A DNA stretch of 27,709 nucleotides, from positions 1 to 27,709 of IMG/VR virus record IMGVR_UViG_3300046516_000745; one strand, 5' to 3'. Of this stretch, positions 6,323-23,829 are shown in pieces. Position 1 is the stretch's first letter. Every line of letters begins with the position of its first letter. This DNA is from a virus. A model generated the notes under the pieces. It worked only from the letters and a program-made list of their open reading frames with translations. It was not told the DNA's origin and made no database searches. A program made the position numbers and the translations under genes.

Positions 6323-6622
6323 ATGGTCAAGACCCCGCTGGCGATGCTCAGACGGCTCTCCGGCTGCCCGAAGCAGATGGACGCGGCGGCGAAGCTCGGC
6401 GTCATCGCCCAGAGCCTGATGAACGTAGAGTCGGGCCGGACCGCGGTATCGGACGACTTCATCGAGCGGCTGGCGAAGGTCTTGAAGCGCCCGGCGGAAG
6501 AGGTCATGCTCGCCTACCTGGAGACGCGCAAGGGCTACTTGCGCTCGGAGGCGGAGCAGGTGGCGAAGCGCCTGACGGCTCTCAGGGGCGGCGTGCGCCC
6601 GGCAAGGCGGAAGTCGGCATAA
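6323..6622 (+). CDS. XRE-family helix-turn-helix regulator
   Basis: This 99-residue protein has a Cro/cI-type HTH at about residues 17-56: AAKLGVIAQSLMNVESGR carries the two HTH helices with the conserved S-x-E-S-G turn, followed by FIERLAKVLKRPAEEVM, the typical helix that closes the domain. The tail is basic and may aid DNA binding. It lies at the head of the control region under its own promoter. It could maintain a repressed state or time early genes. A Xer-type recombinase elsewhere in the window makes a temperate lifestyle possible but not proven. Confidence 0.8.
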   Translation: MVKTPLAMLRRLSGCPKQMDAAAKLGVIAQSLMNVESGRTAVSDDFIERLAKVLKRPAEEVMLAYLETRKGYLRSEAEQVAKRLTALRGGVRPARRKSA

Positions 6623-15202: not shown

Positions 15203-16090
15203 ATGGAGATCCCCCGACTCCTCGAAGCATTCATCCACCACCTGCGCAGCGAGCAGGTCAGCGAATCGACCGTGCGCGTCTACGCCTCACACGTGAGCAT
15301 GTACCTACAGAACCTCGCCATCCACGACAACGACCCAGCTCAAGCCACCCGCGACTCCATCGGCCGGTATCTGCAATGGACCCGCGCGCGTGGCAGGTCA
15401 TCGGCCACCATCGCGCTCCAGCAGACGGCGATCAAGCGCTTCCATGGCTTCTTCGCGAGCCGGGTGCCGACCACCGGACCGAACCCATTGGAGCGACGGT
15501 TCCGCCTGCGCCCTGGGAGGAAGCTCCCGCGCTGGCTCTCCGAGGACGGCATGCGCGCACTCATCGAATCGGTCGCAGGAGCGGCCCCGCTCGACATCCG
15601 CGACCGCGCACTCCTCGAGCTCCTCTACTCGACCGGCCTCCGCTCCGCCGAGATCCTCGGCGTCACTCTCGCCGGCGTCTCGGAACGCGGCCGCACCCTC
15701 CGCATCACCGGCAAGGGCTCGGTCGACGCCATCGTGCCGTACGGCGAGCACGCCCACCTCTGGCTCGCCCGCTACCTCGCAGCGGCCCGCCCAGCCCTCA
15801 TCGCCCGCGAGTCGCATGACCGGCTCTGGATCAACTGCTTCGGCGGCCCACTCCGCTACGCCGGCCTCCACCGCATGGTCCGAGAGCGCGGGAAGAAGGC
15901 CGGCCTCGTCCGTGTCACGCCCCACATGCTGCGCCACAGCTTCGCCACCCACTTGATGGAGCGCGGCGCCAACCTCCGGGTCATCCAGGAGGCCATGCGC
16001 CACGCCTCGATCCGGTCCACGCAGATCTACACCCACATCGATACCGCCCGCCTCGCGGACGAGATCAGGCGATACCACCCGCGCGGCTGA
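15203..16090 (+). CDS. Tyrosine recombinase, Xer-type (integrase candidate)
   Basis: The 295-residue protein has an N-terminal SAM-like core-binding domain (residues 1-95) and a catalytic domain with all key residues: R147 (S-T-G-L-R-S-A-E), K171, H241-M-L-R244, H267 and the nucleophile Y276. Size and domain plan match XerC/XerD rather than long integrases with an arm-binding domain. It could integrate the phage at a host dif-like site or resolve genome multimers. No attachment site is recognisable in the flanking 75 and 26 bases. It sits between accessory and replication genes. Confidence 0.9.
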   Translation: MEIPRLLEAFIHHLRSEQVSESTVRVYASHVSMYLQNLAIHDNDPAQATRDSIGRYLQWTRARGRSSATIALQQTAIKRFHGFFASRVPTTGPNPLERRFRLRPGRKLPRWLSEDGMRALIESVAGAAPLDIRDRALLELLYSTGLRSAEILGVTLAGVSERGRTLRITGKGSVDAIVPYGEHAHLWLARYLAAARPALIARESHDRLWINCFGGPLRYAGLHRMVRERGKKAGLVRVTPHMLRHSFATHLMERGANLRVIQEAMRHASIRSTQIYTHIDTARLADEIRRYHPRG

Positions 16091-16984: not shown

Positions 16985-18453
16985 CCGCAGCCCCCCACGA
17001 CCTCGAAGCCGAACGCGCCATCCTCGGCACGCTCCTCTCCAAGGCCGACCTAATCGCACGCGCCACCCGCCGCGGCGTCACGGCACGCTCCTTCTATGGC
17101 CCATTCCACGCCCGCGTCTACGCCGCCATCCTGGCGCTCGCACCGGCTGCCGACATCGTCACCGTCCACGAGCTGCTTCGCCGCGGCGTGAAGGCTGACC
17201 CGGACGATCTCGGGAACCTCGCCCACCTGACCGAATGGGCGTCCGCCCCGGAGAACCTCGAGGGCCGCTGCGATCTCCTGGTCCGCCTCGAGCGCCAGCG
17301 GGAACTGATCGCCCTGACGCGCTCGCTCGACGAAGCGGCCCACGCCACCGACGATCCGATCGCGCTCTCCTCGGAGTTCTCAGCTCGGCTCCGCGATCTC
17401 TCCTCCGCCGGCTCGACCCGCTCCGGGCTGCTGGAGGCCATCCATGCGTCCACCGCGCTCACCGCGGCCGACCTCCCGCGCCCGGTCTCGCTCCTCGGCG
17501 ACGGGCTCATCTGCCGCGGCGACCTCGTCATCTTCGCCGGCCAGCCGGGGCTCGGGAAGTCGCGCCTATCGCTCGAGATGGCCGTAGCCATGGCCAAGGG
17601 CGAGTCGTGGATGGGGCTCGCCACTTCCGACCGCCCCCTCCGCGTCTGCTACCTGGCGCTCGAGTTCTCCAACTACCGCTGGCTCGAGCGCTGCCTGTCG
17701 ATCTTCGGCGATGGATCGGTGCATGCCGAATCGTCCGAGCTCCTCGGGGCCTACCGCGACCTGACGCTCTCCGGGCCCGGCGGCTGCTTCCACTGGCTCA
17801 CGCGCCAGCAGCTGGACGGCGGGCTCGATCTCGTGTCCACCGCCGGGGCGCTCGCCCTCCGACACCTGATCGATGCCTTGACCCCGGACCTCGTCATCTG
17901 CGACGCGCTCTCCCGCTGCATGGGGAACCGCGAGGAGACGAACGAGGAGTTCGGGCCCTTCATCGAGAACTGCGACGACATCCGCTACTCGACCGGCGCC
18001 GCCCTCGAGTTCATCCACCACGAGCGTAAGGTCGAAGACCGCTCGAAGACCGATCGGCTGTCCATGATCCGCGGCGGCTCGAAGTTGACCGCTGCAGCCA
18101 ACACCGTGCTCACCTGCTCCAAGACGCCGTCCGGGCTGCGCGCCATCTACTTCGACAAGGCGAACTATGCGAGGGAGCCGGACCCGATCCACTACGAGAT
18201 CCCCGACGAGGGCGGTCCTTCCGTGCTCGTCCGGGCGCCTGAGAAGCGCGGCGATCAGAACGTCGAGGCAGTCTGGCAGGCGATACGCACGCACACCGAG
18301 CCAATCACCGCCGAGGAGATCGCTGGCACCATGAAGCTGTCCGTTCGCTCGGTGCGCAGGCACCTCGAGCGGCTGAAGGAACGTGGTGTCGAACGCATCC
18401 GCGTCGACTTCCGCACGTGGAGCTATCGCGTCGAGGAACGGGCGGAGAACTAG
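16981..18453 (+). CDS. Replicative helicase-type protein: DnaB N-domain, RecA-type ATPase and C-terminal winged helix
   Basis: GTG 16981 overlaps the preceding stop. Residues 1-115 resemble the DnaB N-terminal helical domain (P-H-D-L-E-A-E-R-A-I-L-G-T-L-L). The ATPase core has Walker A G187-Q-P-G-L-G-K-S194, Walker B D303-L-V-I-C-D308, H346-H-E-R and R364-G-G-S. Lengths and motifs are closer to RepA/AAA_25 ATPases than to full DnaB. Residues 430-475 add an HTH (ITAEEIAGTMKLSVRSVRRHLERL). The gene ends about 240 bases before an iteron array, so it may combine origin recognition and unwinding. Confidence 0.8.
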   Translation: MTAAPHDLEAERAILGTLLSKADLIARATRRGVTARSFYGPFHARVYAAILALAPAADIVTVHELLRRGVKADPDDLGNLAHLTEWASAPENLEGRCDLLVRLERQRELIALTRSLDEAAHATDDPIALSSEFSARLRDLSSAGSTRSGLLEAIHASTALTAADLPRPVSLLGDGLICRGDLVIFAGQPGLGKSRLSLEMAVAMAKGESWMGLATSDRPLRVCYLALEFSNYRWLERCLSIFGDGSVHAESSELLGAYRDLTLSGPGGCFHWLTRQQLDGGLDLVSTAGALALRHLIDALTPDLVICDALSRCMGNREETNEEFGPFIENCDDIRYSTGAALEFIHHERKVEDRSKTDRLSMIRGGSKLTAAANTVLTCSKTPSGLRAIYFDKANYAREPDPIHYEIPDEGGPSVLVRAPEKRGDQNVEAVWQAIRTHTEPITAEEIAGTMKLSVRSVRRHLERLKERGVERIRVDFRTWSYRVEERAEN

Positions 18454-18575
18454 CCCGCCCTCAGAGCGATCCAGAAGAACGTGGCGTAGGCTTCGAGATA
18501 GCCGCTGCGCCAGGCCAGTCCGATCGCGACTGCAGCGACCATCGCCCAGCCGATCGTGCGCATCCTGTGAGTCAC
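18450..18575 (-). CDS. Minus-strand membrane micro-protein (41 aa)
   Basis: This is the only credible minus-strand gene. A GTG at 18573-18575 is preceded on its strand by a GGAGGGG Shine-Dalgarno about eight bases away. The product has one hydrophobic span (about residues 9-22) and an aromatic C-terminus. It is convergent with the helicase gene, and both stop codons share one CTAG. A minus-strand promoter candidate lies upstream. It may be a maintenance or exclusion peptide; function unknown. A longer form from 18647 is possible. Confidence 0.45.
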   Translation of the reverse strand: MTHRMRTIGWAMVAAVAIGLAWRSGYLEAYATFFWIALRAG

Positions 18576-18660: not shown

Positions 18661-18688
18661 AAAATAGTTGTCATGGGCGATATGCCAA
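18661..18688 (-). promoter_or_regulatory. Minus-strand promoter candidate next to the iterons
   Basis: On the minus strand TTGGCA (complement of 18683-18688), 16 bases and TATTTT (complement of 18661-18666) resemble a sigma-70 promoter. It points towards the minus-strand micro-gene and borders the first iteron, so initiator binding could repress it. Confidence 0.4.
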
Positions 18689-18694
18689 CATGGC

Positions 18695-18948
18695 AGTAAC
18701 GGACTCGCGGACAGTCACGGACAGAGTCACGGACACCTGTTTTGTGTGTTTAGTCACGGACAGATGATTTTCTCCTGTCCGTGACTGTCCGTGACTCGGT
18801 GTCCGTAACTCTTAGTGTTGTGGGGCACAAGGTTATAGAGGCTCGTCTCTTGAGTCACGGCCAGAAGTCACGGACACCAATGGAGTCGCGGACAGGAGTC
18901 ACGGCCAGCCCGGGGATGGTGTAGCCATCCCCGGGTCTGTCCGCGACT
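18695..18948. repeat. Iteron array, candidate replication origin
   Basis: Thirteen copies of a 12-bp element with consensus AGTCACGGACAG lie in about 250 bp. Nine or so are direct: starts at 18695 (partial), 18703, 18713, 18725, 18752, 18853, 18866, 18884, 18897. Four are inverted: 18775, 18785, 18799 and 18937. Spacings are often 10-13 bp, near one helical turn. Two AT-richer gaps (18737-18774 and 18811-18850) interrupt the array in an otherwise very GC-rich genome. The helicase-type gene lies just upstream. Iteron origins work by initiator binding and local melting; an operator array for a repressor is the alternative. Confidence 0.7.
18897..18948. other. Long hairpin formed by two inverted iterons around a perfect 11-bp inverted repeat
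   Basis: CCCGGGGATGG (18909-18919) pairs perfectly with CCATCCCCGGG (18925-18935) around a five-base loop. The iteron at 18897-18908 and the inverted iteron at 18937-18948 extend it with 10 of 12 pairs, for a stem of about 21-23 bp. It could extrude as a cruciform, act as a priming signal on single strands, or terminate transcription. There is no U-tract. Confidence 0.6.
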
Positions 18949-19117
18949 ACCTGCCGACCTCCCGCCTCCATGGGCCGACCCGGTCAGTAACTTTCCTCTT
19001 GCAATCCTGAAAAATAACCCGATGTGTCGGGGGAGCCGGCGCAGCAAGCGCCCTCGGGGATCCGCGGTGCACAGGGAGTGCCCGCGAAGCTGTCAACGCG
19101 CAGGGAGGTGCGGTGCG
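18949..19117. other. Non-coding leader between the origin region and the secreted-protein gene
   Basis: The stretch has no credible gene. It contains a locally AT-rich segment (about 18984-19019) that could hold a promoter, but I find no convincing pair of -35 and -10 boxes. A GGGAGGTG Shine-Dalgarno at 19103-19110 ends it. Confidence 0.4.
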
Positions 19118-19915
19118 ATGATGCGGAACATTCGCGGTCTGATCGTTGGGGCGGTTCTGACCGCCGCAGTCGCAGCGCTCTTCGCTGGCGTGACGCCGGG
19201 CAGCGCGCAGGCTCAGGGTGGCGCGGCCTTCTACATCAAGCGCGTCCCGCTCGTCGCCGCGCGCAACTCGAACCTCGCGGACAATCCCTTCGTCGCGACC
19301 AATCCCGGGCAGACGGCCTACTCGAGCTCGATCCTGAATGGCTGGCACGGTGCGGCCGCATCCGGCACGACCGGCATCGGCGCGCTCGGCACGATGGACA
19401 CGACCGCGGCGATCGACGTGCGCGAGCACTGGCTGAAGACGCGCGTGGTCTATCTCCAGGCGCCGCTCGTCGCCGATCTCGCCGACTCGACGTTCTTCGG
19501 CACGCTGAAGCTCACGAGCACCGCCTCCACCATCGATACGGTCACGATCCAGCGCGACGTGTCCGTCGACGGGATCACGTGGACGGTGGTCGACTCGTGC
19601 GCCGGCCACGTGATCTCGGACACCGCGCCGATCTTCCAGCAGAGCCAGACGCTCGACTCGACGCGCGTCATCATGCCCGCCTCGGGGAGCGTGACGGTTT
19701 ACGGGATGGGATGGGACGTCTACCCGTTCGGCCCGAAGAGCGGCGTCACCGCGCTGGCCATGGAAGGCGTCAACTACATCCGCTTCCGCATCCACATGAC
19801 GCCTGGCGACTACGCCGCGGCTGGCTTGACGGGTGGCATCCGCGGCGTGTTCGAGTTCCCCTCGGCCGACTCCAATCCCTACCTGCCGGCCCGAGCGGTC
19901 CCGGCACAGCCTTAA
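19118..19915 (+). CDS. Secreted or virion-associated beta-rich protein with signal peptide (265 aa)
   Basis: ATG 19118 (with a second ATG at 19121) follows GGGAGGTG by seven bases. Residues 1-33 form a signal peptide (two Arg, a 20-residue hydrophobic core, cleavage after S-A-Q-A). The mature part is Thr/Ser/Asp-rich, strongly beta, with no catalytic signature I know. It is the first gene right of the origin region, just before the terminase genes. An exported protein here is unexpected for a head module and may act on the cell surface. The alternative is a virion protein whose N-terminal helix only mimics a signal. Confidence 0.6.
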   Translation: MMRNIRGLIVGAVLTAAVAALFAGVTPGSAQAQGGAAFYIKRVPLVAARNSNLADNPFVATNPGQTAYSSSILNGWHGAAASGTTGIGALGTMDTTAAIDVREHWLKTRVVYLQAPLVADLADSTFFGTLKLTSTASTIDTVTIQRDVSVDGITWTVVDSCAGHVISDTAPIFQQSQTLDSTRVIMPASGSVTVYGMGWDVYPFGPKSGVTALAMEGVNYIRFRIHMTPGDYAAAGLTGGIRGVFEFPSADSNPYLPARAVPAQP

Positions 19916-22371: not shown

Positions 22372-22571
22372 GCGTCATGCTCCGCACCGTTCGCTGCAAC
22401 CGCGGCCCGATGGATGGGGCCGAGATCGCCGTTCCCGCGGCCACGCAGCTGCCGGAGACGATCAGCTTCCCGAGCGCGGTGATGCTTCGGCGCGACTACT
22501 ACCGGCTGGTCGAGGAAACGGACGGGCTGGCGCGCTATGAATACGAGCGCAGCGGGACGGTGGTCGCGTGA
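22368..22571 (+). CDS. Short phage protein with GPMDG motif (67 aa)
   Basis: GTG 22368 overlaps the previous stop (GTGA); ATG 22377 is an alternative. N-R-G-P-M-D-G-A-E near the start and Y-E-Y-E-R near the end match the layout of the product at 6634-6807. I recall such short G-P-x-D-G proteins from many phages; no function is known. Confidence 0.6.
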   Translation: MSVMLRTVRCNRGPMDGAEIAVPAATQLPETISFPSAVMLRRDYYRLVEETDGLARYEYERSGTVVA

Positions 22572-22867
22572 GCCGGATCGGGGATGCCATCCTCGCCTGC
22601 GCAATGAGTTGGGCGATGGTCGTGCTCATCGCACTGACGCTCACGGCGTTCGGCTGCGGCTCGTCCTACAAGGGCGCGACTGCGCCGGCGGCCATCGCGG
22701 TGGCAGACGCCGACACGGTGCGGCTGATGGTCTGCGGGGACCAGCCAGTCGCGTGCCTGTCGGCCGAGGATGCCGCGGCCCTGGCGCCGACCTGCCCCGA
22801 GCCCGATACGCTCCTCTGCGTCCGGGCGCTCGTCATCGCGTTCCACGTGAAACGGGGCGACGAGTGA
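22568..22867 (+). CDS. Small membrane or lipoprotein-like protein (99 aa)
   Basis: GTG 22568 overlaps the previous stop (GTGA). A hydrophobic N-terminal segment (residues about 14-28) leads to T-A-F-G-C30-G-S-S. The Cys position fits a lipoprotein, but A-F-G-C departs from the usual lipobox at two places. The rest has further Cys residues (C56, C63, C76, C84 region) and may form disulphides outside the cytoplasm. A surface-exclusion role is conceivable. Its stop overlaps the glycosyltransferase start. Confidence 0.5.
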   Translation: MSRIGDAILACAMSWAMVVLIALTLTAFGCGSSYKGATAPAAIAVADADTVRLMVCGDQPVACLSAEDAAALAPTCPEPDTLLCVRALVIAFHVKRGDE

Positions 22868-23829
22868 AGCGCGTGCTCGCGGTGACGCCCTGGTCGGGCG
22901 GCTTCGTGGATGTGCAGCTGGGCCTACTGCGCGCGGCCGGTCACGACGTCCGGGTGCTCCGGCTTACCGTCACGGCCGGCCCGCGCTGGTGGGTGGTTGC
23001 CTGTGCCATGCTGCAGGCCGCGTTCTACCGCGGACCCAAGTCGCACAGGGTCGGGGCTTGGGCGGAGGTAGTTCATGCCTACGGCGCGTGGCCAGCCGGG
23101 CTCGCCGGGCATTACCTCTCGCACCACTGGAATGTGCCGCTCATCATCCATGAGCATCTCTCGCCCCCCGAGCGCCTCCGCCGCCTGCCGCTGGCGGTGG
23201 CTGTGCTCGAGGACTGCGACCGCATCCTCTCGCCGAGCGAGGGGCATGCCGCGGAGGTCTCGCGGATCGCTGGCGGTCGGCATGTCGAGGTAGTCCCGAA
23301 CCCGGTGGTGACGGGCTATCAGGATCTTGGCTGCCCCACGGGCCCATCGCGCGTCGTATGTGTCGGCCGGCTCGAGGGCCAAAAGGGCTTCGACCGGATC
23401 GCCCTCGCGTCGCGCTACCACGAGGACGCGACGTTCTACTTCATCGGCGCGGGCTCGCAGGAGCGGGGGCTCCGGTCGCTCGTCAATGGGAACGCCATCT
23501 TCGTCCCGCCGACCGACCACCGCGGCGCTATGGGCTGGCTCCGGAGTGCTGACGTGGTCGCCTGCCCCTCGCGGCATGAGAGTTTCGGGCTGGTGGCCGC
23601 CGAGGCCGCAGCCATGGGGAAACCGGTCGTGGCGACCGACGTAGGCGTTCATGCCGCGGTCGCGACCGAGCTGGTGCCGCAGGACGCCGGTCCGCGGGAG
23701 TGGGCAGCGGCGCTGAAGCGCGCCACCTTCGCCCCGCGCCTGCCGCGCCTCGTCCCGGGCAGCGCCCCGGAGGCGTTCGTCGCCGCCATGGGCCGCGCCT
23801 ACGAAGTCCAGCGCGGAGGGGATGAGTGA
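22864..23829 (+). CDS. Glycosyltransferase, GT4 family-like (GT-B fold)
   Basis: GTG 22864 overlaps the previous stop (GTGA). The 321-residue protein has an N-terminal Rossmann-like half and a C-terminal half with V-G-R-L-E-G-Q-K-G-F-D, then P-S-R-H-E-S-F-G-L-V-A-A-E-A, the E-x7-E signature of GT4 retaining enzymes, and G-K-P-V-V-A-T-D. It would transfer a sugar from a nucleotide donor to a glycan, protein or DNA base. In the packaging block it is out of place and could decorate virions or alter host surface sugar. Confidence 0.85.
   Translation: MKRVLAVTPWSGGFVDVQLGLLRAAGHDVRVLRLTVTAGPRWWVVACAMLQAAFYRGPKSHRVGAWAEVVHAYGAWPAGLAGHYLSHHWNVPLIIHEHLSPPERLRRLPLAVAVLEDCDRILSPSEGHAAEVSRIAGGRHVEVVPNPVVTGYQDLGCPTGPSRVVCVGRLEGQKGFDRIALASRYHEDATFYFIGAGSQERGLRSLVNGNAIFVPPTDHRGAMGWLRSADVVACPSRHESFGLVAAEAAAMGKPVVATDVGVHAAVATELVPQDAGPREWAAALKRATFAPRLPRLVPGSAPEAFVAAMGRAYEVQRGGDE

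Follow-up and report, generated by a model that had tools for sequence, protein, structure and literature searches.

An iteron array beside a DnaB-like helicase gene as the probable replication origin of a tailed phage

A non-coding array of short repeats that lies 3' of a DnaB-like helicase gene is probably where replication starts in a tailed phage whose circular map is about 40.6 kb long; we put the probability of this reading at about 0.7. The window, i.e. the whole stretch of DNA that was analyzed, is one virus record of 27,709 nucleotides (IMGVR_UViG_3300046516_000745). Contig G001 (36,981 bp) is identical to the window except for four differences near one end, and G002 (23,768 bp), which is about 94% identical, overlaps both ends of G001, hence the circular map. 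In G003, a distant relative whose array region is referred to below as locus L016, the helicase and TerL are 53% and 62% identical, respectively. The original prediction had proposed a likely origin, possibly read by the adjacent helicase. The origin is supported by a conserved layout, by the instability of the duplex, by the position of a GC skew minimum and by the existence of arrays beside other AAA_25 helicases, while the role of the helicase as the reader is something that we only infer.

The array and its conserved layout

Twelve copies of AGTCACGGACAG, 8 on the + strand and 4 on the − strand, are found between 18703 and 18948 when the window is scanned with up to 2 mismatches (Table 1). 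Thirteen copies in both orientations had been announced: the two orientations stand, but the count is rather twelve and a weak one, since the thirteenth site (18975–18989) is a looser match and lies outside the predicted range. The motif is confined to the array, as was supposed; a spread over the whole genome was looked for and not seen, and the three matches elsewhere in the window (2696, 9842 and 13418) are what chance would give (2.56 expected). The best 9-mer of the array occurs 12 times, against at most 5 times in 200 Markov shuffles. The array is also the best cluster of short repeats in both G001 and G002 (12 copies, all other clusters having at most 5), and no second array was found in these two contigs, which jointly span the whole circular map, so that it is the single non-coding repeat array on that map. 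The two AT-richer gaps that had been noticed are indeed present, in DNA of about 67% GC.

Table 1. Features of the array and its surroundings, in window coordinates
Feature	Position	Strand	Remarks
Helicase gene, 490 aa	16981–18453	+	Pfam DnaB-N + AAA_25 (RecA fold) + C-terminal HTH (HTH_11); candidate initiator
C-terminal winged helix, modelled residues 415–490	18223–18450	+	candidate iteron reader
Possible 41-aa hydrophobic ORF	18450–18575	−	GTG start, GGAGGGG upstream; weak evidence; points away from the array
Palindrome TGCCA-ACA-TGGCA (TGCCAACATGGCA)	18683–18695		adjacent to the array on its left; overlaps a promoter-like site that points leftward (18688–18661)
Left iteron cluster, 7 copies	18703–18810	both	+ at 18703, 18713, 18725, 18752; − at 18775, 18785, 18799; kept in G002
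AT-rich gap within the left cluster	18737–18750		64% AT
AT-richer spacer between the two clusters, 40 bp	18812–18851		52% AT; candidate melting site
Right iteron cluster, 4 direct copies	18853–18908	+	at 18853, 18866, 18884, 18897
Perfect 11-bp GC-rich hairpin CCCGGGGATGG-TGTAG-CCATCCCCGGG	18909–18935		between oppositely oriented iterons
Inverted iteron at the array end	18937–18948	−	
CTTGCAATCC	18998–19007	+	right of the array; common to L016

In G003, the same intergenic place has 13 sites, whose motif is altered to GTCTCGG[ATC]CA and variants. The layout common to G002 and G003 consists of seven repeats, an AT-richer spacer of 40–42 bp (40 bp in the window and 42 bp in G003), four direct repeats, a hairpin, and one or two inverted repeats. 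In the window, the order is four + copies, three − copies, the spacer, four + copies, the hairpin and one − copy; in G003 it is two +, one −, one +, three −, the spacer, four +, the hairpin and two −, which amounts to one change of orientation in the left cluster. Between the window and G002, 138 of 140 iteron bases are identical, versus 76 of 84 gap bases (Fisher p 0.007). Since the layout is kept in G003 despite the new motif, and since the iterons are conserved above the gaps in G002, we read these alignments as suggesting that selection acts both on the architecture and on the iteron sites. The same motif was not found by blastn in INPHARED or PLSDB, and none of the 14 other IMG/VR contigs that carry GTCACGGACA pairs has an array.

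The hairpin is part of this layout. The DNA fold of 18897–18948 has an energy of −21.4 kcal/mol (z −6.9 versus shuffles). The G002 hairpin has an altered loop (z −6.1); that of G003 has a stem unrelated to that of the window (z −8.3) and is also located between inverted iterons. It is not an intrinsic terminator, because no T-run follows the stem. The matches in Rfam are all below threshold and mostly of the microRNA type; we attribute them to the inverted repeats.

The array thus consists of multiple short repeats in non-coding DNA beside a replication gene, and easily melted DNA is found within or next to the repeats, as in iteron-type origins. GC skew and duplex unwinding, which had been proposed as checks, both point to the same region. 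In each of G001, G002 and G003, no 300-bp segment has a less stable duplex than the one over the array, which in G001 includes the 18812–18851 spacer. Non-coding DNA is often AT-rich, and the instability is therefore partly expected. The global minimum of the cumulative GC skew lies within about 1.3 kb of the array in G001 and G003; this lends weak support to an origin, considering that the chance of such proximity is about 7–8% per genome and that the genomes are not independent.

The helicase gene and a possible mechanism

The gene upstream of the array codes, as predicted, for a DnaB-N/RecA-type ATPase with a C-terminal HTH: Pfam returns only DnaB-N, AAA_25, DnaB_C and HTH matches, and the protein resembles solved DnaB structures by sequence. 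The first iteron is 250 bp past its stop codon. The full-length model of the helicase has a pLDDT of 38, so that only the C-terminal winged helix was used. The AlphaFold2 model of the last 76 residues has a pLDDT of about 82–87 over the core, and its best PDB matches in Foldseek are winged-helix regulators (E not below 0.001). The region of the recognition helix is similar in the window (SVRSVRR) and in G003 (SIRSARR).

Based on this model, we slightly favor the idea that the helicase itself may read the iterons through its C-terminal winged helix, which also fits the precedents of SaPI Rep, Cch2 and phage P4 alpha. It may also be that there is a separate initiator; the phage encodes other small DNA-binding proteins, for instance an XRE-like HTH protein (6323–6622) that is conserved in G003.

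In the mechanism that we propose, the initiator, most likely the winged helix of the helicase, would bind both iteron clusters, the AT-richer spacer or an adjacent gap would melt, and helicase hexamers would load and then unwind the DNA. The iteron-flanked hairpin would then become single-stranded and may have a part in priming or strand loading. DnaB normally requires separate initiators and loaders. If the proposal is correct, a DnaB-like RecA-fold helicase would recognize its own origin by means of a winged helix fused to it, and the SaPI/PICI-like layout would extend to tailed phages; as the motif changes between relatives, the co-evolution of winged helix and iterons becomes testable.

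Known origins and arrays in other phages

In the rep-ori of SaPI/PICI, the iterons are located 3' of the helicase–initiator gene, in two sets around an AT-rich region (PMC6092414, PMC7581432). The array studied here has the layout described in PMC6092414, since its iteron sets flank an AT-richer region 3' of the helicase gene, although AT makes up only 52% of the spacer and the iterons begin at some distance from the gene; the DNA-binding domain is also at the C-terminus of the helicase. The PICI helicases Rep and Cch, however, are of other families (DUF927 for Cch, Primase_Cterm for Cch2; PMC6092414, PMC7581432), and a Pfam scan of the helicase found neither domain. The present protein combines DnaB-N with a RecA-fold AAA_25 domain, it is encoded by a full tailed phage, and the array has an extra iteron-flanked hairpin. 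Therefore, although the layout is most like that of SaPI/PICI, the array is not a member of that group, its helicase being of another family.

In phage P4, with its ori and crr, a single protein, alpha, binds the iterons and unwinds the DNA, as we propose here; unlike the present helicase, alpha also has a primase, and its helicase fold is different. RepA of RSF1010 is a RecA-fold helicase, and RSF1010 shares with the present system a helicase of this type, iterons and a stem-loop. P4 alpha, ori and crr are compared in PMC4234260. The same paper describes the oriV of RSF1010, which exposes the stem-loops ssiA and ssiB and whose iteron reader, unlike the one we propose, is a protein distinct from the helicase, RepC (PMC4234260). 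Neither a RepC-like iteron binder nor a RepB' primase was recognized among the proteins scanned, which are a subset of the ORFs. As in the present system, the helicase of pRN1, ORF904, has a C-terminal winged helix, and a conserved stem-loop lies 3' of its gene, where it forms the origin (PMC4234260), but pRN1 has no iterons and its protein consists of an archaeo-eukaryotic primase and an SF3 helicase.

Unrelated iteron arrays are found beside AAA_25 helicases in three more phages, and two of the three have an iteron-flanked hairpin. In Rhodoferax phage P26218 (L055 2660–3010), the order is the gene of an AAA_25 RepA, that of a 97-aa protein with weak similarity to GntR, CTGCTACAA repeats in an array whose hairpin (z −6.0) is flanked by inverted copies, and the genes of putative TerS and TerL. 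In the Manatee Spring podovirus ctfPj964 (L062 6750–7190), whose RepA is 51% identical to that of P26218, an array of GTGAGTACTCACAG occupies the same place, with 12 matches, the scan counting both arms of this near-palindrome, and with an iteron-flanked hairpin (folded with RNA parameters). In Vibrio phage 1.123.O (L049 4320–4585), ACCGCGAGG occurs 8 times upstream of a DnaB-N + AAA_25 helicase. Like the window, P26218 and ctfPj964 have an AAA_25 helicase, an array in which inverted iterons enclose a hairpin, and then terminase genes, but the iteron sequences are unrelated, and P26218 has a separate GntR-like protein and no detected DnaB-N. The helicases of the window and P26218 share AAA_25 (pairwise E 0.001). 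We found no earlier description of these three arrays in the literature.

In this sample of phages, which is not systematic, the association is seen repeatedly but not in every phage, since BUCT618, Yen_X1, 1.076.O, ArV2 and MrSmee, five phages with such helicases, have no array beside the helicase gene; neither do most phages of the first set scanned. The top repeat cluster of Microbacterium phage KatChan (L047 16461–16780) falls within an annotated gene, and we discounted it as repeats of coding sequence. In Streptomyces phage Dagobah (L059 1041–1360), six near-copies of TGCAAAGGT are located at the annotated terminal repeat or lie partly inside it.

Our tentative suggestion is that phages with AAA_25 DnaB-like helicases might share an undescribed class of origins, with iteron clusters, a hairpin nested between inverted iterons and an adjacent helicase that is perhaps its own initiator, the layout being kept and the iteron sequence being free to drift or to be replaced. 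Such a recognizable layout would be a way to find origins in uncultured phages.

Other readings and neighboring elements

The late genes flank the array on one side and a small, apparently divergent ORF on the other, and terminase genes are nearby in most cases, which counts against an origin; readings as a packaging site or as an operator are therefore also considered, both of them unlikely. In favor of a pac or cos site read by TerS, the candidate TerS and TerL follow the array at 1.1–1.5 kb, the arrays of P26218 and ctfPj964 directly precede a putative TerS, and the first iteron is about 107 bp from the left end of G002. However, the array and TerS are separated by another gene in the window, and the sequences of the window, G001 and G003 continue straight across the array. 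Moreover, the window and P26218 both have arrays although their terminases are unrelated (no similarity between the TerL proteins, E 0.18), whereas four phages with a related TerL and other replication genes have no comparable non-coding array near TerL.

Equally improbable is a regulatory role, in which a phage regulator would bind the array as an operator or enhancer and control the late operon together with the divergent gene on the left. The leftward promoter-like site and the palindrome that flank the array would suit this function, and the XRE-like protein that could act as the regulator is also present in G003. Yet the iterons are asymmetric, of mixed orientation and 12–13 in number, unlike dimer operators, no promoter-like site was detected inside the array, and the recurrence of arrays tracks helicases of one ATPase class. 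The palindrome, which does not resemble the iterons, fits better: it is likely an operator, plausibly for a dimer. Its arms are retained in locus L010 (87–101), and an unrelated palindrome, TGTACCTCACGGTACA, occupies the same place in L016 (4121–4136).

It is very unlikely that the array serves in partition, recombination or attachment, for example as the arm sites of a XerC/D-like integrase. The window does contain an integrase gene (15203–16090) that is closest to XerC/XerD models, but it is 2.6 kb from the array and codes for a short Xer-type protein in which only SAM-like and catalytic domains were detected; no partition gene was recognized among the proteins scanned, and no prophage relative was found in genome_contigs with TerL or the helicase as query.

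Last, we note some features of the neighboring DNA. The CTTGCAATCC element might be part of a late promoter. Between TerL and the portal gene, the window has an ORF (22537–23829) with weak matches to GT4-type glycosyltransferases, which is absent from that place in L016. In G003, the divergent position left of the array is occupied by a 122-aa secreted-type ORF (L016 3655–4023). The gene that comes next on the right side of the array (19118–19915; L016 4475–5185) appears to code in both phages for a protein with an N-terminal signal-like sequence; the window protein matches no family.
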